Part shown: in pieces, positions 1 through 13,071 of the stretch
Numbering within the stretch: the stretch's first letter is position 1
Layout of the letters: each line of letters opens with the position of its first letter
Source of the DNA: an uncultured Cyanobium sp.
Lineage (GTDB): Bacteria; Cyanobacteriota; Cyanobacteriia; PCC-6307; Cyanobiaceae
Reading direction: 5' to 3'
DNA length: 13,071 nucleotides
Assembly: GCA_937919075.1 (NCBI GenBank)
Contig: CALFOF010000250.1
Span: forward strand, 1-13,071
Translations under genes and position numbers: made by a program
The notes under the pieces: generated by a model
Seen by the model: only the letters and a program-made list of their open reading frames with translations
What the model was told of the DNA's origin: nothing
The model's database searches: none

Positions 1-49
1 TCAGGGCGTCTGTGGAGAAGTGGGCGGTGCGGCTATGTGCGACACGCTC

Positions 50-352
50 CTAGGGCGATTCAGGGGGGAGAGCCGTTTCTTCCGCGTCGTCACTGAAGCG
101 CACCGTCAGCAGATCTTCCTGGGTGAGGCTGCCATTGGCGTCGAGCAGCTCCGGGTGAATGGTGAGACGGCCTGTGCGATCGGTGCTCACAGGCGGCGCC
201 GAAGCCGGGGCGAAGGGAGTGGGGAAAGGGAGATCATTGGGGCGGGAAACAGCCGTGAACCCCTTGGCCATCACCCGAAACGCCTGCCACAACAGACCAA
301 GCAGGCAGGCGGCGTAGAGCAGGGGGAGGAGGCGGGCGAGGAAGGGTTCCAT
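50..352 (-). CDS. DUF2973-like small membrane protein
   Basis: A 100-residue protein with one hydrophobic N-terminal helix (about residues 4-25, LLPLLYAACLLGLLW), then a Pro/Ala-rich linker. It ends in a conserved-looking module, TGRLTIHPELLDANG followed by EDLLTVRFSDD (about residues 60-88). The HPELLD-x-NG...LLxVRF pattern is what I associate with DUF2973, a cyanobacterial family of unknown function. The assignment is from memory of the family, not a search. The frame is open much further upstream (to about 613), but that extension is low-complexity and has no family character, so I start at the ATG just before EPFLARLL. It is divergent from the protease gene at 668. Likely anchored in a membrane with its short C-terminal domain in the cytoplasm; function unknown. 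Confidence 0.75.
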   Translation of the reverse strand: MEPFLARLLPLLYAACLLGLLWQAFRVMAKGFTAVSRPNDLPFPTPFAPASAPPVSTDRTGRLTIHPELLDANGSLTQEDLLTVRFSDDAEETALPPESP

Positions 353-667
353 CGGGGACGGACAAGCTGCCGTGGCCGTTGAAGGCCATGGCCCATCATC
401 GCCTGCTTGAAGACCCAGGAGCGATGCTCCAGGCCCAGAGGGTGCTGCAGGCAGCGCCGAAAGAAAGAACCACCAGTAAAACCGTGCTCGTGTCCATGTT
501 CGTTTACAAAAGTTCGCCAATCCTAGTGAAACTTTGGGTTCTGTGTCGAAATCTCCCCTCGCCCGCGCTGTGCCGCACTTCGTCACACCTTTGCTGCCGC
601 AGCCATTCCTCAACTCCTGGCAGCGCCGTTACGGTCGGAATCACGCCCTGCTGTTGTCTTGATCGCC
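353..667. promoter_or_regulatory. Divergent intergenic region between DUF2973-like gene and HtrA-type protease
   Basis: About 315 bases with no convincing gene. It must hold promoters for both divergent genes. The most AT-rich part is around 485-545, which includes TTTACAAAAGTT and GTGAAACTTTGGG and is the natural place for promoter elements. I could not find a confident -35/-10 pair on either strand. Open frames that cross it look like chance translations of GC-rich DNA. Confidence 0.35.
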
Positions 668-1819
668 ATGACCATGAAACGTTTGCCGCTTCGCCAGCTT
701 CCTTATCTGCTCCCTCTGGCGGTTCTGCTGGCCTCCCCGGTGCTCACCCGACCAGCTCCCGCGCCAGCCCAGGCTCAGCCAGGCAGTGCGCCGGGGCTCT
801 CCAGGCAGTCGTTTGTGACGGCCGCCGTGCGCAGCGCCGGGCCGGCTGTGGTGACGATTGACACCGAGCGCACGGTGGTGAGCGGCGGAGGTACAGGATT
901 GCCGCGCGGCTTGATGGCGGATCCGTTTTTCCGCCAGTTCTTCAACGTGCCGCAGGCACAGCAGCCGTCCCAGCGGACCGAGCGGGGCCAGGGCAGCGGG
1001 GTGATCTTTCAGGCCGATGGCCTGCTGCTGACCAACGCCCACGTGGTGGAGAACAGCGATCGGGTGTATGTGGGTCTCAAAGATGGGCGCCGGGTGGAGG
1101 GGAAAGTGGTGGGGCTTGACAGGCTTACCGATCTCGCCTTGGTGCGGTTGCTGAGCCCAGGGCCATGGCCGGTGGCCAGGCTCGGGAATTCCGATGCGCT
1201 TCAAGTGGGCGACTGGGCGATTGCGGTGGGCAATCCCTTCGGCCTCGACAACACCGTGACCATGGGGATCATCAGCAACCTCAACCGCAACGTCAGCAAG
1301 CTGGGCATCACCGACAAGCGACTGGATCTGATTCAGACAGACGCAGCCATTAACCCCGGCAACTCCGGCGGGCCCTTGCTCAATGCCGATGGTGAAGTGG
1401 TGGGGATCAACACCTTGGTGCGCTCCGGCCCCGGCGCTGGCCTCGGTTTTGCGATTCCGATCAACCGGGCCCGCAGCATCGCCAATCAGTTGCTGGCCAC
1501 CGGCCGGGTCGAGCATCCGATGATCGGCGTCGGCCTCGATAACGTGCCCGGCACCAATCCAGGCACGGCGCCGCGTGGTGCACTGGTGCGCTCGGTGTTG
1601 CCGGGCAGCCCTGCCGCGGCAGCGGGTCTGCGGCCGGGCGATGTGATTGTGGCGGTGGAGGGGCGCCCGCTTCCCGGCCCCTCCCAGATGATCGCCGCCG
1701 TGGAAAGCAATGGTGTGGGCCGACCAATGGCGGTGCGCTTCCAGCGCAACGGCGCCGACATCAATGTTCAGATCACACCGACGGCGATGGTGGGTCAGGG
1801 TCAGGGCCAGCGCCGTTGA
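668..1819 (+). CDS. HtrA/Deg-family serine protease (HhoA-like), exported
   Basis: Trypsin-fold HtrA/Deg protease of 383 residues, which degrades misfolded proteins outside the cytoplasm. An N-terminal hydrophobic segment (about residues 11-25) followed by an Ala/Pro-rich stretch with AQA looks like a Sec signal or anchor, so it should act in the periplasm or thylakoid lumen. The catalytic triad is visible: His125 in LTNAHVV, Asp155 in LTDLAL and Ser233 in NPGNSGGPL. One PDZ domain follows (about 285-370; [19 protein letters not shown]). One PDZ and this length match cyanobacterial HhoA/HhoB/HtrA paralogues rather than two-PDZ DegP; which paralogue cannot be told. A TTG at 659 and an ATG at 674 are alternative starts; I chose the ATG at 668. 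Followed by a probable terminator. Confidence 0.93.
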
Positions 1820-1860
1820 ACAGGAAGCGCAGCTGACTCCGGCGGCGGGATCGCCCGTTC

Positions 1861-1905
1861 AAAGCCCCATAAAGAAGCCCTCGGGCTTTCACACCCAAGG
1901 GCTTT
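1861..1905 (+). terminator. Probable terminator after the protease gene, with competing stems
   Basis: AAAGCCC at 1861-1867 and AAGCCC at 1875-1880 can each pair with GGGCTTT at 1883-1889 or GGGCTTT at 1899-1905. The short stem AAGCCC/GGGCTT at 1875-1888 has only TC between its arms, so some pairs must open to form a loop. The longer pairings, 1861-1867 with 1899-1905 and 1875-1880 with 1899-1905, are geometrically comfortable. There is no long T-run. Its position, about 40 bases past the protease stop and before the oppositely oriented gene ending at 1982, fits a terminator shared by convergent genes. Confidence 0.5.
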
Positions 1906-1981
1906 GGAGTTGGTGTGTCGGTACTGCGGCGGGTTGCTAACCGCTGCTGTACGGGAGGGGCAGGCAGGGCAACAGCCAGAT

Positions 1982-2263
1982 TCAGAGCACATCCGGGCCG
2001 GCGACGGAAAACTCCTGCTTGACCAGGAGCTTGCCGGCCTCAGTGCCCCCTGCAGAGCCACCGAGGTGACTCGGCGGACTGCCGAGCTGCTGGCGCATCA
2101 TCCACTCGGTGGCGGCCCGCTGGGTTTGCCAGGCCTGAAGCAACTGTTTGGCCAGACCGCGCAGGGATTGGGCGTCTCCGGTGGAATCGATGACGCGGGT
2201 CATGCGCTCCAACTCGAATTTCTGGCCAAGGGTGAGGGCGAGCGGTTCGGACATTCCTGGCAT
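1982..2263 (-). CDS. Small helical conserved-type protein (LTLGQ...QLLQAW family), unknown function
   Basis: A 93-residue protein that I do not recognise by name, though its style is that of short conserved picocyanobacterial proteins. Its core is predicted helical: LALTLGQKFELERMTRVID, then LRGLAKQLLQAWQTQRAATEWMMRQQL. No membrane segment or signal is visible; the C-terminal third is Gly/Ser-rich and probably flexible. The opening LTLGQKFELE and the spacing of a second amphipathic helix loosely recall NblA, the phycobilisome-degradation adaptor (LSLEQEF...), but NblA is shorter and the match is only impressionistic. An ATG at 2254 (MSEPL) is an equally good or better start. Lies downstream of the twin-CX3C gene on the same strand, 120 bases away. 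Confidence 0.65.
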   Translation of the reverse strand: MPGMSEPLALTLGQKFELERMTRVIDSTGDAQSLRGLAKQLLQAWQTQRAATEWMMRQQLGSPPSHLGGSAGGTEAGKLLVKQEFSVAGPDVL

Positions 2264-2383
2264 CGCGACGGATCAATGAGCCAACCCAACGCTACGAAGT
2301 GTTTCGAGGTCACACGTATCGATCGCCACAGAGTTAGGGAGATCGTGTCAGGATCCGCCCATGCCGGGTCTCGCGCTCTGGGC

Positions 2384-2584
2384 TCAGTGATGCATCCGCA
2401 GTTGCTCAACGCACTGGGTGATGCAGGCTCCGTCATCCAGTGAGCATGTGGTGATGCACTCGAAGTAAGACTCGACGGAGTCTCCGGCGGCATCTCGCCC
2501 GAGGGCGGCATCCATGATGGTCATGCCGGTGTCAAGGGCATCGGGGCCAAAGGAAGTTGGGGAAGACAGACGGGGATCGCTCAT
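2384..2584 (-). CDS. Twin-CX3C small protein, unknown function
   Basis: A 66-residue soluble protein. The N-terminal 35 residues are polar and probably disordered. The C-terminal part, ESYFECITTCSLDDGACITQC, has Cys43, Cys47, Cys54 and Cys58, giving C-X3-C-X6-C-X3-C. Two helical turns joined by a tight acidic loop (SLDDGA) would bring the four cysteines together, either as two disulfides or as a metal site. I recall similar short proteins in marine Synechococcus and Prochlorococcus but know no function. An AGGA three bases before the ATG gives some start support. It sits between the ABC-F gene and the small LTLGQ-type gene, all on the minus strand, with 180 bases separating it from the ABC-F stop. 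Confidence 0.7.
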   Translation of the reverse strand: MSDPRLSSPTSFGPDALDTGMTIMDAALGRDAAGDSVESYFECITTCSLDDGACITQCVEQLRMHH

Positions 2585-2764
2585 GGGTCCTGCGGCGGTG
2601 GATATGGTCAGGATATGCAGATCAATGGCAAGGGTCCAGAAAAATGAGTTTTCTCGCCTAAGCCTTCATGAAGTTTTTTGTGGTAACCCCTGCTGCGCCC
2701 AGCCCCTGAGGCTTTTCTGCTGTCTCTGAGCCTGCAAATGCCCCGCGTTGCGGTCTTGCCCCGC

Positions 2765-4492
2765 TCAGTTCTGGCGGGTCTTGCGGGAAGCCGCTTTGGC
2801 CTGCTGCTTGTCTTTGTTGGCGGCTGTTTTGGCGCGGCGCGTCTGTTCCTCCAGCACCCGCTGCTCGGCTTCGGCTTCTTCGCGCTTTTTCTCCAGGTAG
2901 TAGGTGTAATCGCCCCGATAGAGCACCAGTTCGCCGTCGCGCAGCTCCACGATGCGGTTGGCCACCTGGGCAATGAAATAGCGATCGTGGGAAACGATCA
3001 GCGCCGCCCCCTCGTACTCCTGCAGCGCCTGTTCCAGCATCTGCTTGGCGGGGATGTCGAGGTGGTTGGTGGGCTCGTCCAGGATCAGCAGGTTGCAGGG
3101 GGTGAGCAGCATCAACGCCAGTGCCAGCCGCGCCTTCTCGCCGCCGCTGAGCTGGCCCACCTGTTTGAACACCGCGTCATTGCTGAAGCAGAAGCTGCCC
3201 AGCAGGGAGCGCACCTGGGTCTGGGTCCAGTCGGGCACGGCTTCGAACAGGGTGTCGATCACGGTTTTCTCGAGGTTCAGCGCCTCGGCCTGGTTCTGCT
3301 CGAAGTAGCCCGGCACCACGTTGTGATCGCCCAGGCGGGCGGTGCCCTCGTCGACCGGCTCGAGGCCCATCACCAGGCGCAGCAAGGTGGACTTGCCGGC
3401 GCCGTTGGGCCCGACAAAGGCAATCCGGTCGCCCCGTTCCACCTCCAGCCCCGCGCCAAGGAACAGGATCCGCTCGCCGTAGCTGTGGCTCATCTCTTCG
3501 ATCAGCGCCGCCTGCCGGCCGGAGCGGGGCGCCGCAGGGAACTGGAAGCGGGGCCCGGACACCCCCTCCAGCGGCGCTTCGATCCGCTCCACCTTCTCCA
3601 GCAGCTTTTCGCGGCTCTTGGCCTGGGTGCTGCGGGTGGCGCTGGCGCGGAAACGGTCGATATAAGCCTGCTGACCCGCCAGTTCCTTCTGCTGGCGCTC
3701 GAAGGCGGCCTGGGTGGCTTCCCGTTCCAGCAGCTTCTGCTCAAGATGCTGGCTGTAGTTGCCCAGGTAGGTGCGGGAAATGCCGCGCTCAGTTTCGACG
3801 ATCTGGTTGCAGATCCTGTCGAGGAAGGTGCGGTCGTGGCTGACCACCACGATCGGCACCGGCTGGGCTACCAGATAGCCCTCCAGCCACTGGATCGTTT
3901 CCACATCCAGGTGGTTGGTGGGTTCGTCGAGCAGCAGCAGATCGGGATCCTGCAGCAGGATCTTGCCAAGTGCGATCCGCATCTGCCAACCACCGGAATA
4001 GTCGCCCACCGGCAGGTCGGCGGATTCGGGGGTGAAGCCGATCGTGGGCAGGAGCTTGTCGATGCGGGCGTCGAGCTCGTAGCCGTGCAGAGCTTCGAAA
4101 CGGCTGTGCAGCCGCCCCAATTCGTGGATCAGATCATCGAGATGGTCGGGGTCGGCGCTGGCCTGCTCGCCCGCCATTTCATGCTCCACCTGGTGCTGGC
4201 GGATGAGCACTTCGGCGGCTTCCCCGAAGGCCTGGAAGAGCTCTTCCCGCACGGTGCGTACCGGATCCACATCGAATTCCTGCTTTAGGTAGACGATGCG
4301 GGGATTTCCCTGGCGCACCACCTGGCCACTGCTGGGCTCTTCAAGCCCGGCGATCAAGCGCAGCTGGGTGGATTTGCCGGCACCGTTCACCCCCACCAGA
4401 CCGATCCGGTCGCCGGGCTTCACTTCCCAGGTGACGTCGCGCAGCACTTCGCCGGTGGGGTAAAGCTTTGAGACGCGTTCCAGACGGAGCAC
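2765..4492 (-). CDS. ABC-F family ATPase (ribosome-associated type, Uup/YheS/EttA relatives)
   Basis: A 575-residue protein with two ABC ATPase domains and no membrane segments, the hallmark of ABC-F proteins, which act on ribosomes rather than in transport. Domain 1 has Walker A GVNGAGKST (34-42), signature YSGGWQ (165-170) and Walker B LLLLDEPTNHLD (185-196). Domain 2 has GPNGAGKST (361-369), LSGGEKAR (448-455) and LLILDEPTNHLD (468-479). Each domain has a VSHDR switch histidine. The charged linker between them (about 245-305) is the P-site tRNA-interaction motif region of the family. The C-terminus (about 540-575) is a Lys/Arg/Glu-rich coiled coil. The start is GTG at 4492, without a clear Shine-Dalgarno; the exact start is uncertain. 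Divergent from the small membrane protein gene at 4609. The subfamily cannot be fixed by eye. Confidence 0.93.
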   Translation of the reverse strand: MLRLERVSKLYPTGEVLRDVTWEVKPGDRIGLVGVNGAGKSTQLRLIAGLEEPSSGQVVRQGNPRIVYLKQEFDVDPVRTVREELFQAFGEAAEVLIRQHQVEHEMAGEQASADPDHLDDLIHELGRLHSRFEALHGYELDARIDKLLPTIGFTPESADLPVGDYSGGWQMRIALGKILLQDPDLLLLDEPTNHLDVETIQWLEGYLVAQPVPIVVVSHDRTFLDRICNQIVETERGISRTYLGNYSQHLEQKLLEREATQAAFERQQKELAGQQAYIDRFRASATRSTQAKSREKLLEKVERIEAPLEGVSGPRFQFPAAPRSGRQAALIEEMSHSYGERILFLGAGLEVERGDRIAFVGPNGAGKSTLLRLVMGLEPVDEGTARLGDHNVVPGYFEQNQAEALNLEKTVIDTLFEAVPDWTQTQVRSLLGSFCFSNDAVFKQVGQLSGGEKARLALALMLLTPCNLLILDEPTNHLDIPAKQMLEQALQEYEGAALIVSHDRYFIAQVANRIVELRDGELVLYRGDYTYYLEKKREEAEAEQRVLEEQTRRAKTAANKDKQQAKAASRKTRQN

Positions 4493-4608
4493 AGCAGGGG
4501 AGGTATTGGATGTTGATCCCCATCATCACGCCTGCGCCCGCCTCAAGCCGTATCGGCAGAGTGGAGGTTGGAGCAGGGCGCCGCGATGATTGCCCACCAG
4601 CTGGAGCC

Positions 4609-4842
4609 ATGGTGAAACGACTGGAGCAAGTGGTGGCGTTGGTGGTGGCCGCCGGTCTGGCACTGGTGAGCTACTGGCTGTTCTTCAGCTGGTCGCAGGG
4701 TGGCCGCTCCGATCGTCTTGCGCCGCGCAGCCTCACACCCACCCCGGAGGGGACCGCAGCGGAGCTGGCGCGCCCGCAGCTGCAAGTCCCGCAACTGCCA
4801 GCCCCGCGTTTGGAGCCGCCAGCGGCCACCACAGAACCCTGA
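4609..4842 (+). CDS. Small single-pass membrane protein with Pro-rich tail, hypothetical
   Basis: A 77-residue protein with a clear N-terminal transmembrane helix (about residues 8-29, VALVVAAGLALVSYWLFF) preceded by Lys/Arg. That predicts an N-in anchor with the tail outside the cytoplasm. The tail is Pro/Ala/Gln-rich (LQVPQLPAPRLEPPAA) and looks disordered. GGAG sits just before the ATG at 4609 and supports that start; the frame is open upstream to about 4468 without protein-like content. Not recognised as a named family. Divergent from the ABC-F gene (116-base gap) and convergent with the Nif11-like gene. Confidence 0.6.
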   Translation: MVKRLEQVVALVVAAGLALVSYWLFFSWSQGGRSDRLAPRSLTPTPEGTAAELARPQLQVPQLPAPRLEPPAATTEP

Positions 4843-4863
4843 GCGGGCGGAGCTGCCGTTTCG

Positions 4864-4879
4864 ATCCGAGCAGCCGGAT
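4864..4879. terminator. Small hairpin between convergent genes
   Basis: ATCCG, AGCAGC, CGGAT forms a perfect 5-bp stem with a 6-base loop. It lies within the 44-base gap between the stops of the small membrane protein gene (+) and the Nif11-like gene (-). No T-run follows on either strand, so it is only a possible bidirectional terminator. Confidence 0.3.
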
Positions 4880-4886
4880 GCGTAGA

Positions 4887-5132
4887 TCAGAGGCCGCCGC
4901 GGGCCTTGACCAGCCATTGCCGTGTGCCCTCATCAAGGCCGGCCAGATGCTCCTTCACCTGCTCGGCGCTGACCGGCAGATTCCATTGCTCGCCCAGCTC
5001 CACGATCCGCTGCAGGGTGCCCTTCGGATCTTGCAGGGCCTGCCGGAACAGCAACTGGGTCAGGTCATGGTCTTGCTGGATCCGGGCGTACAGCTCGGCA
5101 ACGGGTGATGGTGCGGCGCTGGAATCTGTCAT
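4887..5132 (-). CDS. Nif11-like small helical protein
   Basis: An 81-residue, probably all-helical soluble protein. The stretch LTQLLFRQALQDPKGTLQR followed by IVELGEQWNLPVSAEQVKEHL resembles the Nif11 pattern: a short helical domain with a residue set near A-x-x-x-G-x-x-x-x-x-x-E-L. That family is abundant in cyanobacteria as free-standing proteins and as leader regions of ribosomal peptides. No Gly-Gly leader cleavage site followed by a core peptide is present (the protein ends KARGGL with nothing after it) and no modification enzyme is nearby, so a peptide-precursor role is not supported. It follows the BcsA-like gene by 33 bases on the same strand and is probably co-transcribed with it. 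The Nif11 label is by eye only. Confidence 0.65.
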   Translation of the reverse strand: MTDSSAAPSPVAELYARIQQDHDLTQLLFRQALQDPKGTLQRIVELGEQWNLPVSAEQVKEHLAGLDEGTRQWLVKARGGL

Positions 5133-5165
5133 GGAAACGGATGGAAGCCGTTGACTGGTTCGACG

Positions 5166-7229
5166 TTATGGGTGGCTCGCGAGTGGGGCGAGCGATTGTG
5201 TGCTGTTGATGGACTTCGGCACCAGGCTGCGGCGGAAGGGGCGAGCCTCCCGTGGGGCCCGCAGCAGCTGGGAAAACAGCACGATCAGGGCCTTCCACTC
5301 CGGCGGCGCCTGACGCTGGGGCCAGCTGCCCGGGGTGCAGTACAGGAACCGAATGAGCCCATTGTGGCTGTCCCAGCCGAGCGTCTTCCACGTCAGTGCC
5401 ACACGCCGTCCCCGCTGGGCCAGACAGCTGGCGTGCAGCGCGTCGGGCAAGCCCGGGAGTTGCAGGGTGGCCTGGCTGAACGGCGAGAGGTCGGCGGTGA
5501 GGTGGCCTTCCACCCCCCGCTCGCTGATGGCGTCGATCTGGAGCGTGCAGCTGATCCCCTCCGCCCGCAGCTGGGCGGGCAGGCTGAGCGCCAGCCAGGG
5601 GGTGGGATCAAGGCAAGGGGGATCAATGCAGCAGCGCAGTGCCACTAGCAGCGCAAAGGTGTTGAGGCCGCCCCAGAACAGCCCCACCCAGTGGGTGGTG
5701 GGAGCGAGCGGACCTGCCTGCAGCTGCAGAAGCACGGCACCCAGATTGATGAGGTTGACCACCAGCAGCACAAGTAGGGGCAGTAGCAACGACAAGGCGC
5801 CGCCGCCGTGCTGGCGGAGGCGGTGCTTGGGGGTGATCGTGAAGCCGCCGCCCGGCATCACCAGGCTGCGCAGCACGGTGATCGCCAGTGGCACCGCCAG
5901 CAGCCAGCTCATCAGCTCCGGCAGCAGGGCCTGCCGGGAGCCCCTGGTGAGCCAGCCCACCAGCGCCAGTTGGCTGCAAAGCACAGGCAGGGCGTAGACG
6001 AGGAACTCCTCAAGCGTCATGCGGATCGGCAGGATGCCGAGCAAGCCAACGCAGAGCGGCATCAGCAGCAGGATCAGCCGGGGCAGGTTGTTGAACCAGT
6101 GCAACAGCCCCTCGCTGTAGGAGAAGCGCTGCTGGGCCGTGAGCCCCCGCAACCGCAGAGGATTGGCGTGCAGGCGAAGGGTCTGCAAGGTGCCGGTGCA
6201 CCAGCGCAAGCGCTGCTGGACGAAATCCGCCATCGTTTCGGCGGCCAGACCGGCGCTGAGCTTTTCTGGCAGATAGACGAGGCGATGGCCGCGCGCGCTG
6301 AGCTCCAGGCCGGCCACGAAATCCTCCGAGAGCGCAGCAGGGTTGAAACCACCGACGGCGGCCAGGGCCGCGCGCCGCACCACAAATGAGGTTCCGGCAC
6401 AAACGACGGCGCCGTTGCCATCACGCACCGGCTGGATCCAACGGTAGAAACTCTCCTCATCGGGCAGCAGCCAGCGCTCCATCGCCAGGTTGCGCATCAT
6501 CGGGTCGGCGTTGATGAAGGTCTGGGGGGTCTGCACCAGCGCCACATCCGCGTCCAGAAAGAAGCCGAGCGTCCGCTCGAGAAAGTGGGTCTGCGGGATG
6601 AAGTCGGCGTCGAACACCACCACCAGCTCCGCGTGGCTGTGGCTGAGCCCGAAATTGAGATTGCCCGCCTTGGCGCCCTGGCGATCCAGGCGGCTGAGGT
6701 AGGTGCAGCCGAGCCGATTGGAGAGCTCTTCCACCTCAGCGCGGCCGCTGTCATCAAGCACGAACACCCGCTTCTGGGTGTAGCGCATCGCTGTGACGCC
6801 GACCAGACAGCGCCGCAGCACTGCCAACGGCTCGCCGCAGGTGGGGATCAGCACATCCACCGGGGGCTGCCAGGTGCCTTCGCGGAAACAGGCTTCGAGC
6901 CGGTCGGCCTGTCGCTCCCGTGGCGGAATCGCCCGCCAGCTCAGCAGGATCTGGATCATGCCGGTGCCCAGCAGGAAGGCCTCGCAGCCCAGCAGCACCA
7001 GGGAGAGGGTGAGAGCCAGCGGCGACGACGTGTTGAGGCTGAAGCCCACCCGCCACACCAGATAACGCAGCACCAGAACCAGCAGCAGGGCCACCGCCAG
7101 CCGGCGCGCCGCTAATGGACGCAGCACTTCAGGCCGGTGCGTGAGCCAGCGGGCCGCTGCCAGCACCAGGATCACCGGCAGCAGGGAAGTGACCAGCGAG
7201 GCCGATGGAATCAGTGGGAAGGCGTTCAC
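5166..7229 (-). CDS. BcsA/cellulose-synthase-like family 2 glycosyltransferase with degenerate PilZ domain
   Basis: A 687-residue processive membrane glycosyltransferase that should polymerise a beta-glycan from a UDP-sugar and extrude it. Two or more N-terminal membrane helices (about 10-98) precede the GT-2 domain. Catalytic motifs are VLDDSGR (Asp159/160), GAKAGNLN (185-192), FDADF (207-209), SED (301-303, in place of the usual TED general base motif) and QQRLRW (338-343). Membrane helices follow (about 380-530) with FTITPK (463-468), matching the gating-loop FxVTxK of BcsA. A C-terminal PilZ-like beta domain has DAISERG (566-572) but no RxxxR before it. No bcsB, bcsZ or other export gene is in the window. 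Start is GTG at 7229, without a clear Shine-Dalgarno. The polymer made is unknown. Confidence 0.9.
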   Translation of the reverse strand: MNAFPLIPSASLVTSLLPVILVLAAARWLTHRPEVLRPLAARRLAVALLLVLVLRYLVWRVGFSLNTSSPLALTLSLVLLGCEAFLLGTGMIQILLSWRAIPPRERQADRLEACFREGTWQPPVDVLIPTCGEPLAVLRRCLVGVTAMRYTQKRVFVLDDSGRAEVEELSNRLGCTYLSRLDRQGAKAGNLNFGLSHSHAELVVVFDADFIPQTHFLERTLGFFLDADVALVQTPQTFINADPMMRNLAMERWLLPDEESFYRWIQPVRDGNGAVVCAGTSFVVRRAALAAVGGFNPAALSEDFVAGLELSARGHRLVYLPEKLSAGLAAETMADFVQQRLRWCTGTLQTLRLHANPLRLRGLTAQQRFSYSEGLLHWFNNLPRLILLLMPLCVGLLGILPIRMTLEEFLVYALPVLCSQLALVGWLTRGSRQALLPELMSWLLAVPLAITVLRSLVMPGGGFTITPKHRLRQHGGGALSLLLPLLVLLVVNLINLGAVLLQLQAGPLAPTTHWVGLFWGGLNTFALLVALRCCIDPPCLDPTPWLALSLPAQLRAEGISCTLQIDAISERGVEGHLTADLSPFSQATLQLPGLPDALHASCLAQRGRRVALTWKTLGWDSHNGLIRFLYCTPGSWPQRQAPPEWKALIVLFSQLLRAPREARPFRRSLVPKSINSTQSLAPLASHP

Positions 7230-7459
7230 GACGTGTTCGGCGTTCCCTCAATACCACCCAAATACCTTGTCGGATGTCTTTTGGCACCGTGGCAGCGGCT
7301 TGGCGAGGCTGTAACAGGGTGCGCCTGAGAATTGCGCAGCCTCAGGACTGAGCTGGCTTCAGCGATACGCAGGCTTCGATGGAGATTTTGCTGATCGGCT
7401 CGATTTTCGCTCAGGCCGCCTGTAGAGCTGCGCGATGGCGCAGGGCTCAGCGGCTCGCT
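7230..7459. promoter_or_regulatory. Intergenic region upstream of the BcsA-like gene
   Basis: About 230 bases without a convincing gene, holding the promoter for the BcsA-like gene and the 3' end of the gene at 7460. AATACC occurs at 7250-7255 and again at 7261-7266, 11 bases apart (one helical turn), about 20-40 bases before the GTG start. A stem CTGCGC/GCGCAG (7428-7433 with 7438-7443, loop GATG), extendable by GAG/CTC across a GG bulge, lies 17 bases past the stop of the minus-strand gene ending at 7460. It may be a terminator stem, but no T-run follows. Confidence 0.35.
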
Positions 7460-7909
7460 TCAGGCCGCGCAGGGCGAATCGAGCTCCTCCTGTTCGGAGG
7501 CGGAGGCGTCCTCCATGGTGCGGGCATCGAGGCAGAGCACCTTGCGCAGCTGGGCGTAGTTGGAGGCCTGGGACTTGTGACCCTCCTGGGCTGCGGCGAA
7601 CTCCGCGCGCTGCAGGACGTGGTGCAGATGGGTGAGCAGATAGGTGCTGATCACAGCGGAGACAAGCACGTCACTTTTCTCGGCGCCGCAGCCCATGCTT
7701 CCAGCCTGGGCCGAGGGTTTGCGGGCGGCGCGCTTGGAAGGTTTCGAGGCTGCCGCGGGGCTTTCTTTGGTGTCGCTGGGAGTGGCGGGCCCATCAGTGG
7801 CCCTGGTCCCGTCCCTGGTTACAGGTTTGGTCATGGCTTTGGTCATGGCGTTGGCAGTGGCGTTGGAAGTGGCGTTGGAAGTGGCGCATGCGCAGGGCTC
7901 CTCAATCAT
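7460..7909 (-). CDS. Hypothetical protein with tetrapeptide repeats and basic linker
   Basis: A 149-residue protein I do not recognise. The N-terminus carries degenerate tetrapeptide repeats (ATSN, ATSN, ATAN, AMTK, AMTK; about residues 9-28), then a Thr/Pro/Ala/Lys-rich linker (SKPSKRAARKPS) of histone-H1-like composition. The part that looks folded is about residues 80-130: VSAVISTYLLTHLHHVLQR then EFAAAQEGHKSQASNYAQLRK, probably helical and His-rich. The opposite strand is also open here, but its translation is Gly-rich low complexity. The start is uncertain: the ATG at 7909 includes the repeats, and internal ATGs within or after the repeats would omit some of them. It is divergent from the ribbon-helix-helix gene across a 65-base gap that contains an inverted repeat, so the two may be co-regulated. 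Confidence 0.6.
   Translation of the reverse strand: MIEEPCACATSNATSNATANAMTKAMTKPVTRDGTRATDGPATPSDTKESPAAASKPSKRAARKPSAQAGSMGCGAEKSDVLVSAVISTYLLTHLHHVLQRAEFAAAQEGHKSQASNYAQLRKVLCLDARTMEDASASEQEELDSPCAA
7826..7885. repeat. Five tandem 12-bp units
   Basis: Two copies of TTTGGTCATGGC (7826-7849) are followed by GTTGGCAGTGGC (7850-7861) and two copies of GTTGGAAGTGGC (7862-7885). The unit is a multiple of three, so copy-number change would add or remove tetrapeptides in the minus-strand protein without shifting its frame. Confidence 0.9.
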
Positions 7910-7936
7910 ACGGCCGGATACTATCCCTGCTTATCT

Positions 7937-7956
7937 CTGTACACTCGTGTGTAGAG
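7937..7956. promoter_or_regulatory. Inverted repeat between divergent genes, candidate operator
   Basis: TACAC, TCGT, GTGTA is a perfect 5-bp inverted repeat (7940-7953). It extends to CTGTACAC/GTGTAGAG with one mismatched position on each side. It lies in the 65-base gap between the hypothetical gene (start 7909, -) and the ribbon-helix-helix gene (start 7975, +), 18 bases before the latter's start. Ribbon-helix-helix proteins commonly bind short inverted repeats in their own promoters, so autoregulation is plausible. This is inferred from position and symmetry only. Confidence 0.45.
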
Positions 7957-7974
7957 CAAGCGCACCCTGGGTCC

Positions 7975-8322
7975 GTGGCCACCCGTCAGACCTCCGCCAG
8001 CGGCCGCCCCAAGTCACCTCGCATTCAGGTGGTCCTGCCTGAAGAGCTCTGTGAGCGCCTGGCCGCAGTGGCAGAGGCAGAGTCGCGCACGGTCAGCAAC
8101 ATGGCCAAGGTGCTGATCCAGCAGGGCCTGGATCGGTTGGACCGGGAGCTGCCGCCAGATCTGCCGCACGAACTGTCGCCTGAACTGCCGCGCGATTCCC
8201 GCAGCCAGCGCCAGCTGCGCACCGATCAATTCCGCCAGGCCCTTGAGCGACAGCAACGCAATGGTCCCGGTCGTCTGCGTGGGGCGCCGCGGCGGCTGCG
8301 GTTCTACCGGCCGGCGGGCTGA
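7975..8322 (+). CDS. Ribbon-helix-helix (CopG-like) DNA-binding protein
   Basis: A 115-residue protein. After a short basic N-terminus (ATRQTSASGRPKSPR) comes the beta strand RIQVVLPEEL and two helices, CERLAAVAEAESRTVSNMAKVLIQQGLDRL (about residues 15-55). This is the classic ribbon-helix-helix arrangement; such proteins dimerise and insert the paired strand into the DNA major groove. The C-terminal half is Pro/Glu then Arg-rich (RLRGAPRRLRFYRP) and not assignable. I chose the GTG at 7975 because the sequence from there (VATRQ...SGRPKSPRIQV) is a typical beginning for such cyanobacterial regulators, whereas the upstream open frame back to 7888 crosses the promoter region. No toxin gene follows, so an antitoxin role is not supported. 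Divergent from the gene at 7460-7909. Confidence 0.82.
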   Translation: MATRQTSASGRPKSPRIQVVLPEELCERLAAVAEAESRTVSNMAKVLIQQGLDRLDRELPPDLPHELSPELPRDSRSQRQLRTDQFRQALERQQRNGPGRLRGAPRRLRFYRPAG

Positions 8323-8380
8323 ACAGCCTCTTGGACCACGGGCTGGACATCTTTCTGGCCGACCTGTGTTTGCAGGGGGC

Positions 8381-8408
8381 GGCAGTGGCAGGCAGTGGCA
8401 GGCAGTTG
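8381..8408. repeat. 10-bp tandem repeat, about 2.7 copies
   Basis: GGCAGTGGCA occurs at 8381-8390 and 8391-8400, followed by the partial copy GGCAGTTG at 8401-8408. It sits in the 92-base gap between the convergent ribbon-helix-helix and anmK stops and ends just before the anmK stop codon. No function is apparent. Confidence 0.85.
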
Positions 8409-8414
8409 CTTGAA

Positions 8415-9587
8415 TTACAGGGTGGGGGTTGCGAGTACACCCAGTACCGCGCTGCGGGAAGCCCCGGTGACGGCAGGCAATGAACCGGGATGGCGGTGGT
8501 GGTGCCACCAGGCCAGCAGCGCGAAGCCCAGCGCCTCGCGCTGCGACGGCTCCACCCCCAGCTCTGAGAGGGCCCGGACCATCACGCCACGGCAGCGCTG
8601 GCGCAGTTCACGCACCAGCGTGGGGTTGTGGGCGCCGCCGCCAGCCAGCACCAGCTCAAGCGGCCGGGTACCCCGCTCCAGATCCTGAGCGACAACCGCC
8701 GCACTGAAGGCGGTGAGGGTGGCGAGCGCATCGGCCTGCTGCTCAGCAAGCTCGGCGCTGCTACCGCCGGCAGCAGTGGCGCCGGCAGCAGTGGCGAGAT
8801 CCTGCAGGCGGCGGCGCAGATCCTCCTGCCCGAACAATTCGCGCCCAGTGGATTTCGGCGGCGGCACGTGGAAGTAATCCTCCTGCAACCAGCGGGTGAT
8901 CAAGGCGTCCTGCACCTGGCCGCGGGCGGCCCAGGCGCCATCGCGGTCGTAGCCGAGGCGCCCCTCGCTGAACTGGGCTACCGCCAGGTCGATCAAGGTG
9001 TTGGCCGGCCCGCAGTCCCAACCTGTCACCGGGGCCTGCCGCTCCGGGCCCCTGGCAGGTGGCAGCAAGGTGAGATTGGCGATGCCGCCGAGGTTGAGCA
9101 CCGCCCGCCAGCCGCCGATGCGCGGCAGCAGCGCGGCATCGGCGGCTGGTACCAGTGGCGCACCATGCCCACCGAGCGCCAGGTCGTGGGCGCGCAGATC
9201 AAACACCACCGGAGTGTTCAGCAGCTGGGCCAGCAACGGGCCTTGCAGCAGTTGCCAGCTGGCGCCGCGGCCTTCGGGCCTGGGCGGGCGGTGCCAGATG
9301 GTCTGGCCATGGCAGCCCACCAGCTTTGCGTCGCCGGCGGGGTCGCAGCTGCGGGCGGCGCGCGCCTGCTCAACGGTGACCGCCTCCGCTAAATCCAGCA
9401 GCACGGCGGCGGTGTGGGGCTCCCCCTGACCCACCGCCACCAATCGGGCGCGCAGCGGCTCGGGGTAGGGGATGAAGCTGCTGCGCAGCACACGCCAGCG
9501 GGGGTGGTTGCGCGGACCTTCGAAGTGAGCGAGTACGGCATCGATGCCATCGGCGCTCGTGCCGCTCATCAGGCCCAGCACCTTCAT
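8415..9587 (-). CDS. anmK: Anhydro-N-acetylmuramic acid kinase
   Basis: A 390-residue cytoplasmic kinase that phosphorylates and hydrolyses 1,6-anhydro-N-acetylmuramic acid from turned-over peptidoglycan to MurNAc-6-phosphate. The N-terminus has the ATP-binding motif LMSGTSADGIDAV (about residues 6-18). Other family hallmarks are HGQTIWHRP, LNLGGIANLT, WDCGPANTLIDL, YDRDGAWAARG and LVLAGGGAHNPTLV near the C-terminus. Length fits the family (about 370-390). The ATG is only 4 bases past the ktrA stop, so it is almost certainly the last gene of the prx-ktrB-ktrA-anmK run. A Ser/Ala/Gly-rich insertion (about 250-280, AAGATAAGGSSAELAEQ) is a likely surface loop. The downstream enzyme MurQ is not in the window. 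Confidence 0.95.
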   Translation of the reverse strand: MKVLGLMSGTSADGIDAVLAHFEGPRNHPRWRVLRSSFIPYPEPLRARLVAVGQGEPHTAAVLLDLAEAVTVEQARAARSCDPAGDAKLVGCHGQTIWHRPPRPEGRGASWQLLQGPLLAQLLNTPVVFDLRAHDLALGGHGAPLVPAADAALLPRIGGWRAVLNLGGIANLTLLPPARGPERQAPVTGWDCGPANTLIDLAVAQFSEGRLGYDRDGAWAARGQVQDALITRWLQEDYFHVPPPKSTGRELFGQEDLRRRLQDLATAAGATAAGGSSAELAEQQADALATLTAFSAAVVAQDLERGTRPLELVLAGGGAHNPTLVRELRQRCRGVMVRALSELGVEPSQREALGFALLAWWHHHRHPGSLPAVTGASRSAVLGVLATPTL

Positions 9588-9591
9588 CGGC

Positions 9592-10296
9592 TCAGTGGGA
9601 GGGGAGGGCCTCGAGCGCCTCGCTGCTACCCATCACCACCAGCAACTCATCTTCGTTGAGCACGTGGGAGGCCGGCGGATTCACGGTGAGGCGGTTCTGG
9701 GGACCGGCCGCCAGCACGCTGACGTTGTGGTTCTTGCGCATGTTCAGATCACGCAGGGAGCGACCCACGAACACCTTCGGCACCTTGATTTCCTCGATGC
9801 TGTTGCGGTCGTCGAGCCGCAGCCGCTCCAACAGGTTGGGCCGCACCAGCTCCATGCCCAACCGCGTGCCCTGCATCTTGGACGGGAATACCACCCGATC
9901 GGCGCCGACCCTCCGGAGCATTTTTTCATGCAGATCGCTGGTGGCCCGGGCAATCACCTGACGCACCCTGCTGCCAGGTGCATCTTTGACGATCAACGTG
10001 GCGGTGATGCTGGCCTCGATCGGCTCACTGATCGCCACCACTACTGTGCCTACATCCAGGGCGCCGGCGGCGCGCAGCGCTTCCTCATCGGTGCAATCCA
10101 CCACCCGTGCCTCGATGGCCGGATCTTCCTGGCGCAGTTCATCGATCACCCGTTGGCAGCTGTCGATGGCCAGCACCTCCGCATCGAAGCGGAGCAACTC
10201 CTTGCAGACGGCACTGCCAAAGCGGCCCACGCCGATCACGGCATAACTCCTCGAAACTGTGTCGCTGCCGCCCTGCCATTGCCACCACTGGGTCAT
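9592..10296 (-). CDS. ktrA: KtrA potassium-uptake gating subunit (RCK/TrkA type)
   Basis: A 234-residue cytoplasmic regulator that forms a ring under the KtrB channel and opens it in response to nucleotide binding. The Rossmann (RCK-N) domain starts with YAVIGVGRFGSAVC (GxGxxG) and an acidic residue at the end of strand 2 (EVLAIDS). It continues through VVDCTDEEALRAAG and VVVAISEPIEAS. The C-terminal part (about 165-230; IEEIKVPKVFVGRSLRDL ... EDELLVVMG) is the RCK-C (TrkA-C) domain. Size and single RCK unit fit KtrA rather than the double-length TrkA of enterobacteria. The first 15 residues (TQWWQWQGGSDTVS) precede the usual start of the family, so the true start may be a little further in. 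It lies 43 bases past ktrB and 4 bases before anmK. Confidence 0.93.
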   Translation of the reverse strand: MTQWWQWQGGSDTVSRSYAVIGVGRFGSAVCKELLRFDAEVLAIDSCQRVIDELRQEDPAIEARVVDCTDEEALRAAGALDVGTVVVAISEPIEASITATLIVKDAPGSRVRQVIARATSDLHEKMLRRVGADRVVFPSKMQGTRLGMELVRPNLLERLRLDDRNSIEEIKVPKVFVGRSLRDLNMRKNHNVSVLAAGPQNRLTVNPPASHVLNEDELLVVMGSSEALEALPSH

Positions 10297-10339
10297 GAGC
10301 GGGGCGAAGAAAGGGAAAAGGTGGAGAGGTTCATGACGA

Positions 10340-11728
10340 TCAGAGGTAGAGCTCTTCGCGGGGATAGCCCACCCGATTGTGGGTCCTGCTGGGGTAGAGG
10401 GACGAGAGCAACAACAAAATGCCCACCCGTCCTACAAACATGCCCACCATCAACACCAGCTGGCCCCAGCGGTTGAGCTGGGCGGTGACGCCCACATCCA
10501 GGCCCACGGTGCCGAAGGCCGACACACAGGTAAACATCCTTTCAAGAAAGCTGAAGGGTTCACCTCCCGATGCGCCGGAGGTGGTGTTGCCGAGGCCGAG
10601 CACCAGGGTCATGCCCAGCACGAACAGAGCGGAGGAGAGGGCCACGCCGATGGCCCGGAGCACCACCTTGTCGGGGATCTCGCGGTTGCGCACCACCACC
10701 TCCTCCTCACCGCGAAGGGTGGCGCGGGTGGCGGCCACCAGGGCGGCGAAGGTGGTGGTCTTGATGCCTCCGCCGGTGCCGCCGGGGCTGGCTCCGATGA
10801 ACATCAACGCCATGATCAGCAGGAGACCGGCATCAGAAATCGTGTCCACCGTGAGTGGCACGGTGTTGAAGCCGGCGGTGCGGGTGGTGATCGATTGAAA
10901 CAGCGTGACCTGAACCTGGTCCCACCAGCCCATGCTTCCCACCATCTGCTGAGTGGCGAAATGTTCGGTGAAGAGCAGGCCAATCGTCCCCAGAATGATC
11001 AGAACCAGCGTGCTGCGGATCACCAACCGCGTGTGCAGACTGAGCCGGCTGAGCCGGTGCAAGTGGCCGAGGCGGAAGCGGTTCACCCAGAGGTCATTGG
11101 CGACGCGCCAACCGATGCCACCGATCACGATCAAGGCAGCGATCACCGCATTCACCACCGGTTGCTGGCGGTAGCTCTCCAGGCTGTCTGACCAGAGACC
11201 GAAACCGGCGTTGCTGTAAGCGCTGATGCAGTGGAACAGGGCCGCCCAGAGCCGTTCTCCCCGGTTCTGAATGTCGGTGAATCCGAAGCTGTACAGAATC
11301 ACCGTGCCCACGGCGATCACCGCGGCGGCGATCACCAGAATCTGGTGAAAGGTGGTGCCGATGCCACCAACGCCGAACTCATCGAGCGCTCGGCCCTTGT
11401 CGAGCCGGTGACGCAGGCCGGAACGGCCTTGCACAAATCCCTGTAGGAAGGTGGTGATCGCCATCAGCCCCAGCCCGCCGGTGAGGATCAGGCCCGCCAG
11501 CACCATCTGACCGAACAGGGTGAGGTCGGTGCCGACATCAATGATCGACAGCCCCGTGACCGTGATCGCCGAGGTGACGGTGAACAGCGCCTCCCATAGC
11601 CCTACATCGGTGCTGGAGCAAACCGGGCTGGCGATCACCAGAGTGCCCACGGCGATCACCAGCATCCCTGTCACCAGGGTGAACTGTGGAACGGTGAGAC
11701 GGTGCTGCCAGCCCGATCGGGTGCTCAC
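10340..11728 (-). CDS. ktrB: KtrB potassium-transport membrane subunit (TrkH/KtrB family)
   Basis: A 462-residue integral membrane protein with the four-fold M1-P-M2 architecture of the Trk/Ktr/HKT superfamily. The four pore loops, each with a filter glycine, are visible: SAITVTGLSIID, SAYSNAGFGLW, TTRTAGFNTV and SAFGTVGLDVG. A Gly-rich stretch, GASPGGTGGGIKTTT, marks the flexible gate in M2 of the third repeat, typical of KtrB. It mediates K+ uptake together with KtrA; in Synechocystis the Ktr system is sodium-dependent. A GTG start overlaps the peroxiredoxin stop by four bases (GTGA), so translation is probably coupled. The third cyanobacterial component, KtrE, is not seen in this window. 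Confidence 0.95.
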   Translation of the reverse strand: MSTRSGWQHRLTVPQFTLVTGMLVIAVGTLVIASPVCSSTDVGLWEALFTVTSAITVTGLSIIDVGTDLTLFGQMVLAGLILTGGLGLMAITTFLQGFVQGRSGLRHRLDKGRALDEFGVGGIGTTFHQILVIAAAVIAVGTVILYSFGFTDIQNRGERLWAALFHCISAYSNAGFGLWSDSLESYRQQPVVNAVIAALIVIGGIGWRVANDLWVNRFRLGHLHRLSRLSLHTRLVIRSTLVLIILGTIGLLFTEHFATQQMVGSMGWWDQVQVTLFQSITTRTAGFNTVPLTVDTISDAGLLLIMALMFIGASPGGTGGGIKTTTFAALVAATRATLRGEEEVVVRNREIPDKVVLRAIGVALSSALFVLGMTLVLGLGNTTSGASGGEPFSFLERMFTCVSAFGTVGLDVGVTAQLNRWGQLVLMVGMFVGRVGILLLLSSLYPSRTHNRVGYPREELYL

Positions 11729-12360
11729 GTATTGGGCTGGGGGGTCATGCGCAGGTAGGGCTTGACCTCAGTGACCCCTTTAGGAAACTTGGCCCGGGCA
11801 TCTTCGGTGGAGATTGAGGGCACCACCACGCAGTCGTCACCCTGCTGCCAGTTCACCGGAGTGGCCACCTGATGGTGATCGGTGAGTTGGAGGGAGTCGA
11901 TCACCCGGAGGATTTCATGGAAGTTCCGGCCCGTGCTGGCTGGATAGGTGATCTGCAGACGCAGTTTCTTGCTGGGATCGATGATGAACACAGAGCGCAC
12001 GGTGAGGTTGTTCAGCGCTTTCGGGTGGATCATCCCGTAAAGATCGCTCACCGATTTGTCCGCATCTGCCAGGATCGGGTAGTCAACGATCGTGCACTGC
12101 GTTTCATTGATGTCGCCGATCCAGCCTTTGTGGCTCTCGGCGGAATCAACGCTCAGGGCGATTGTCTTGACATTGCGCTTTTCCCACTCCGGGCGCAGAC
12201 GGGCTACTTCACCGAGTTCCGTGGTGCACACGGGGGTGTAGTCGGCGGGGTGGGAAAACAGCACGACCCAGCTGTCGCCGGCGAAGTCGTAGAGGTTGAT
12301 CGGACCCAGCTGGGATTCCTGGGTGAAATCGGGGACGGGGTCACCGAGTTGAAGGGGCAT
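11725..12360 (-). CDS. 1-Cys peroxiredoxin (Prx6 type)
   Basis: A 211-residue thiol peroxidase that reduces hydrogen peroxide and alkyl hydroperoxides. The peroxidatic site is HPADYTPVCTTELG, with Cys45, Thr42 and Pro38 of the PxxxTxxC motif. The Prx6-type C-terminal arm is present: RSVFIIDPSKKLRLQITYPASTGRNFHE, then VATPVNWQQGDDCVVVPSIS and PKGV...YLRMTPQP. No resolving cysteine in the usual 2-Cys position is visible; other cysteines are in NETQC and DDC. The start is the ATG at 12,360, where family similarity begins (PLQLGDPVPDF). The open frame runs on upstream to about 12,705, but only through the eukaryotic-like segment, so that extension is spurious. No clear Shine-Dalgarno precedes the ATG. 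It leads the run into ktrB, ktrA and anmK. Confidence 0.95.
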   Translation of the reverse strand: MPLQLGDPVPDFTQESQLGPINLYDFAGDSWVVLFSHPADYTPVCTTELGEVARLRPEWEKRNVKTIALSVDSAESHKGWIGDINETQCTIVDYPILADADKSVSDLYGMIHPKALNNLTVRSVFIIDPSKKLRLQITYPASTGRNFHEILRVIDSLQLTDHHQVATPVNWQQGDDCVVVPSISTEDARAKFPKGVTEVKPYLRMTPQPNT

Positions 12361-13071
12361 GGGAAAAAGGAGTGTTAGAAGTGAAAGGAAAAGGATTGTG
12401 TGGGAAGGGGCGCGCCGCCGCCTCCGCACCCTGGGCGACGTGCTCAGGGCCAGGCCGCCCCTCCTCCCTCCCGTGCGCAAGACCAGGGCCGCGGCGGCGA
12501 GGCCGACGCTGGTCCTCGACCTCGACGAGACCTTGGTCCACTCGACGCTCGGCCCGGGCCCCGTCGCAGTAACTTCGCCCGAGGCTCCGTCGGGCATCTC
12601 TGGTGTCGGGGGAAGAAAGGGCCAGCCCCCACCCCCCGGTGCTGTTTCTCGCTTTTCTTTTGACGTGGCCCTCGCAGGGAGGACGCACGCGGTCCACGTG
12701 CGCACCAGGCCGCACCTGCTCCCTTTTCTCGAGAGGTGCGCCCGCCTCTTTGAGGTCGTCGTCTTTACTGCTTCCCAGAAAGTCTATGCAGAGCAGCTTC
12801 TCGACGTCATCGACCCGTCGCGCAGGCTGATCAGACACCGCGTGTTCCGCGACTCGTGCGTGATCTTCGAAGGGAACTACCTGAAGGACCTTTCGGCTCT
12901 CGGCAGGGACCTGTCCCGCGTCGTGATCGTCGACAACTCCCCGCAGGCCTTCGGTTTTCAGCTCGACAACGGCATCCCCAGCGCTGACATCCTCCTCGAC
13001 GGTCAGGACACGGGGCAGAATCTGGATTCCTCCGGCTATCGAAAGTTCTATGCCGAGGACTATCCCACCGG
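12359..13071 (+). CDS. Eukaryotic-type CTD/SCP-like HAD phosphatase, partial, running off the window
   Basis: Open from an ATG at 12,359 to the window end without a stop (over 230 codons). The recognisable domain begins at about 12,503: LVLDLDETLVHS with the two catalytic aspartates of DxDxT. Next come VHVRTRPHLLPFLER, LFEVVVFTASQKVYAEQLL (HAD motif II), FRDSCVIFEGNYLKDLSALGRDLS (motif III Lys) and VVIVDNSPQAFGF (motif IV). This is the FCP1/SCP (CTDSPL2-like) Ser/Thr phosphatase family of eukaryotes. About 30 Gly/Pro/Ser-rich residues are inserted after LVHSTL. Family similarity stops after DNGIP (about 12,975); the rest (ILLDGQDTGQNLDSSGY...) does not match. The true N-terminus is unknown, since a cyanobacterial/eukaryotic join probably lies between 12,361 and 12,500. 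Substrate and origin are unresolved. Confidence 0.8.
   Translation, partial: MGKRSVRSERKRIVWEGARRRLRTLGDVLRARPPLLPPVRKTRAAAARPTLVLDLDETLVHSTLGPGPVAVTSPEAPSGISGVGGRKGQPPPPGAVSRFSFDVALAGRTHAVHVRTRPHLLPFLERCARLFEVVVFTASQKVYAEQLLDVIDPSRRLIRHRVFRDSCVIFEGNYLKDLSALGRDLSRVVIVDNSPQAFGFQLDNGIPSADILLDGQDTGQNLDSSGYRKFYAEDYPT

Follow-up and report, generated by a model that had tools for sequence, protein, structure and literature searches.

A eukaryotic-type phosphatase fragment very probably misjoined to the end of a cyanobacterial draft contig

Introduction

The phosphatases of the SCP/CTDSP (NIF) family are defined by two motifs, DLDETLV and DNSP. A piece of a protein of this kind is encoded at the right-hand end of the DNA analyzed here, a window of 13,071 bases that is identical to contig C250, a complete contig of the draft assembly G000. 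The piece has matches to 16 distinct sequences of solved structure, the best of them being SCP1 (PDB 3pgl, which we take to be the human protein) with an E value of 1.7e-31. A second described phenomenon bears on the same locus: a review of metagenomic assembly (PMC8862208) names the merging of similar regions as a source of chimeric sequences. We conclude that C250 is very probably a chimera, in which a fragment of a eukaryotic-type SCP/CTDSP phosphatase has been misjoined to a cyanobacterial contig.

Results

The draft assembly comprises 2,306,673 bases (2.31 Mb) in 389 contigs and has an estimated completeness of 88%. We take the host of C250 to be a cyanobacterium on the basis of the label given by the first-pass annotation and of a profile match to PsaA_PsaB (photosystem I; 227.2 bits) elsewhere in the assembly, on a different contig. 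Among 14 control genomes, this family was matched in one, that of Synechococcus elongatus. The left 12.4 kb of C250 is unremarkable host DNA. Eight proteins of the contig were scanned against Pfam and are, from left to right, a trypsin-like/PDZ protease, an ATPase with two ABC domains, a glycosyltransferase, AnmK, a TrkA-like protein, a TrkH-like protein, a peroxiredoxin, and the phosphatase piece. A histone search of the assembly found no further eukaryotic sequence; a ubiquitin search gave no matches, but its control also matched nowhere. The features around the join are collected in Table 1.

Table 1. Features at the right-hand end of contig C250 (positions in the window)
Feature	Position	Strand	Basis or remark
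1-Cys peroxiredoxin gene of the host genome	11725..12360	-	Pfam AhpC-TSA and 1-cysPrx_C
A/G-rich stretch	12361..12410		GC 0.449 over 12362-12410; situated between the start codon of the peroxiredoxin and the word also found on C77
18-base word at the join, GC-rich, CGCGCCGCCGCCTCCGCA	12411..12428		Matches the final 18 bases of contig C77 exactly (reverse strand)
Eukaryotic-type segment, very probably foreign, about 660 bases, to contig end	12411..13071	+	NIF domain; no matches in 59 other genomes
Partial SCP/CTDSP-type HAD phosphatase domain	12503..12988	+	Pfam NIF, profile positions 1-133 of 160

The peroxiredoxin gene, which the first-pass annotation had already assigned to the 1-Cys type, carries both of the Pfam domains that bear this assignment out. 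Its start codon lies at 12360-12358 and it reads in the direction opposite to the phosphatase frame. The DNA of the gene is 96.7% and 94.3% identical to that of two genomes of the same genus, the match reaching position 12362. When the segment 11760-13071 was used as the query, it was matched in 32 of the 60 genomes examined, its own included. The match in each of the 31 others ends at query positions 511 to 609, that is, by window position 12368 and at least 43 bases before the join. Such an end to the similarity is what a foreign tail would give, but it is no guide on its own to the position of the join, because upstream regions are poorly conserved in any case.

No relative matches the A/G-rich stretch past 12368; the stretch most likely represents native DNA upstream of the peroxiredoxin gene. 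A switch in base composition had been reported near 12,409, and the part of this claim that concerns the A/G-rich stretch stands. The two sides of the join, however, hardly differ (GC 0.651 over 1-12361 vs 0.658 over 12411-13071), and it is only the short AT-richer stretch between them that departs. On the other side of the peroxiredoxin gene, the neighboring TrkH gene seems to be partly deleted in a same-genus genome (G001, locus L005, 1013-2103), where only two pieces align to the window.

An open frame on the plus strand extends from 12359 to 13069 and is still open at the contig end. All of the motifs that the first-pass annotation had named (DLDETLVHS, FTAS, YLKDLS, and DNSPQAFGF) were found in the translation of this one frame, and both the DLDETLV catalytic motif and the DNSP motif align to SCP1. 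The NIF profile (PF03031) covers residues 49-210 with 146.8 bits, compared to a curated cut-off of 21.8, and the domain is incomplete, its profile match halting at position 133 of 160 shortly before the contig end. Phosphatase and peroxiredoxin had been described as abutting; the open frame does start beside the peroxiredoxin start codon, but the NIF domain begins about 140 bases away. The 10 kb expected to the right of the join does not exist, the contig ending at 13071. Judged by its family and motifs, the gene product would be an ordinary aspartate-based protein Ser/Thr phosphatase in its own organism.

No convincing splice sites were seen by eye in the phosphatase frame, and the insert that follows DLDETLVHS stays in frame. 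Also by eye, the residues after NGIPS (window 12976-13071) depart from the SCP family, and the DNA of 12960-13071, which includes the last ~95 bases after NGIPS, matches only itself within the assembly. These last ~95 bases may reflect an intron, a divergent end, or a second junction.

We also searched for the NIF family in 400 genomes of the host's family, the host's own included, drawn from a larger group. Ten matches were obtained at an E value of 0.001 or better, three of which exceed the cut-off: that of the assembly itself, at 146.5 bits, and two others at 25.6 and 23 bits. A comparable NIF gene was found in none of the 399 other family genomes searched.

Within the assembly, the word CGCGCCGCCGCCTCCGCA occurs with at most one mismatch at two sites only, 12411-12428 and C77:5499-5516, the latter on the minus strand and running to the last base of C77. 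The end of C77 and C250 agree at 24 of 26 bases and then at only 12 of 60. A 13-base part of the word is also present inside C77. As a control, 5000 pieces of 60 bases each, taken at random from same-genus DNA, were compared to 12363-12700, and the longest common word was 14 bases (5/5000). A set of 3000 pieces whose GC content equaled or exceeded that of the C77 end gave the same maximum (10/3000), whereas the end of C77 itself shares 18 bases.

Contig C77 (5,516 bases) encodes, according to Pfam, a pyridine nucleotide-disulphide oxidoreductase, hflX (GTP-bdg_N and _M, MMR_HSR1), and a CitMHS-family transporter with TrkA_C domains. The transporter stop lies 52 bases short of the contig end, in an orientation that runs straight into the peroxiredoxin gene. 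Two genomes of the same genus have hflX adjoining the peroxiredoxin, without an intervening transporter gene, and in the assembly hflX has a single long match, on C77, besides two further matches of 44 and 39 bases. On the same-genus locus L026, C250 aligns to 2677-4739 (95.3% identity) and C77 bases 1-3541 align to 8416-4873 (92.7%), so that the two contigs are facing neighbors with 133 bases between them. L026 has no transporter at this locus, so the order that we propose is not itself seen in the two same-genus genomes. Two loci from other genera, L006 and L008, do carry a gene matching the C77 transporter directly upstream of the peroxiredoxin, with 75.9% DNA identity in both. The distance from transporter stop to peroxiredoxin start is 97 bases in L006 and 69 bases in L008; for C77 joined to C250, it would be 52 + 50 = 102 bases.

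Support for the order hflX, transporter, peroxiredoxin, TrkH, TrkA therefore comes in two parts, from C77 for hflX to transporter and from L006 and L008 for transporter to peroxiredoxin. Because of the shared word at its end, the facing alignment, and the matching order in other genera, C77 is very probably the true neighbor of C250. A separate difference was seen within C77 at 3515-5464 (locus L025), where the alignment to two same-genus genomes stops inside hflX (at C77:3541 and 3515) and is followed by the CitMHS-family transporter; a gene was gained or lost here, and the end of hflX was altered with it.

Discussion

A likely true neighbor was thus found elsewhere in the assembly, ending on the very sequence at which C250 leaves host DNA, and this makes a misjoin very probable. 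The first-pass annotation had preferred a chimeric join near 12,409, and this preference is sustained: C77 ends on the word at 12411-12428 and holds the genes that one would expect to precede the peroxiredoxin. The features read from the sequence are genuine, and their arrangement is very probably an artefact of an ordinary kind. The source of the phosphatase piece would most likely be a cellular eukaryote present in the same sample.

Other sources of the misjoined DNA were weighed. SCP/CTDSP-type phosphatases can be encoded by large DNA viruses that infect eukaryotes, and one of these viruses could have supplied the piece through the same artefact. We consider this improbable: a scan of a viral contig collection, run with a single-protein query and sensitive to close relatives only, returned 16 pattern matches and no encoded relatives.

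A NIF-family gene of another bacterium in the sample, likewise misjoined, is a very improbable source. NIF-like genes do occur in bacterial assemblies, for example those of Stenotrophomonas, Corallococcus, and Minicystis, and our scan of bacterial and archaeal genomes yielded 25 loci that are 23.5-41.8% identical to the piece in their main segments. However, 23 of these 25 are just 23.5-37.3% identical, and the two best, L029 (41.8%) and L030 (33.9%), both sit in metagenome-assembled genomes (MAGs) and may themselves be eukaryotic contamination. L029 (4867-5363), in a MAG labelled Verrucomicrobiaceae, is the closest match from a bacterial MAG. Its match is split, with a second segment of 30 residues that is 56.7% identical, and none of its 16 frames of at least 120 aa exceeds 227 aa; for these two reasons it may be a eukaryotic contaminant. 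The same reading is less clear for L030 because it carries a frame of 674 aa.

Real transfer of a eukaryotic phosphatase gene to a site upstream of the peroxiredoxin, with C77 derived from another strain in the same sample that lacks the gene and keeps the transporter-peroxiredoxin order, is scarcely credible. In its favor, a single open frame does extend from next to the peroxiredoxin start codon across the domain, and GC is similar on the two sides. Against it, the domain is only partial and continues up to the end of the contig, and no other of the 400 family genomes holds a comparable gene. C77, moreover, breaks off at the shared word, restores a normal order of genes, and has the only long match to hflX. 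We found no support for this earlier alternative and rejected it because a likely displaced neighbor ending on the same word was identified.

We return to the chimeric contig and to how it could have formed. A GC-rich word common to the upstream region of the peroxiredoxin gene and to a eukaryotic gene of the same sample may have led C250 on into DNA that does not belong to it, so that C77 was left unattached. On the real chromosome, the CitMHS-family transporter gene of C77 would precede the peroxiredoxin gene. That the word caused the join is the simplest account. Common assemblers use words of at least 21 bases, and because 18 bases fall short of this, a pure collision of words would work only if the end of C77 had been trimmed; otherwise some different route, for example a chimera formed in the library, is needed. 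The origin may lie in either assembly or library making. On this reading, the phosphatase gene is absent from the cyanobacterium and therefore has no role there.

This case is a caution that gene transfer can be mimicked where a draft contig ends with a eukaryotic-type gene next to bacterial ones. Looking for the displaced neighbor within the same assembly gave a strong answer here even though no reads were used. Anyone working with the assembly should distrust positions 12411-13071 of C250 and treat C77 as its likely neighbor.

Compared to the phosphatases that it resembles most, the piece shares with SCP1 the aligned motifs DLDETLVHS, FTAS, GNYxKDLS, and DNSP. The two are 49.6% identical over 111 residues, a value measured on the conserved stretch alone and hence not like for like with the percentages of the bacterial loci. 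The C250 piece differs from SCP/CTDSP proteins in that its domain is incomplete at the C-terminal end and in that, by eye, about 25 extra low-complexity residues follow DLDETLVHS. Compared to the metagenomic-assembly chimeras of PMC8862208, C250 likewise consists of DNA of two sources joined together, but the stretch that the two share is very short, 18 bases being exact and 24 of 26 identical.
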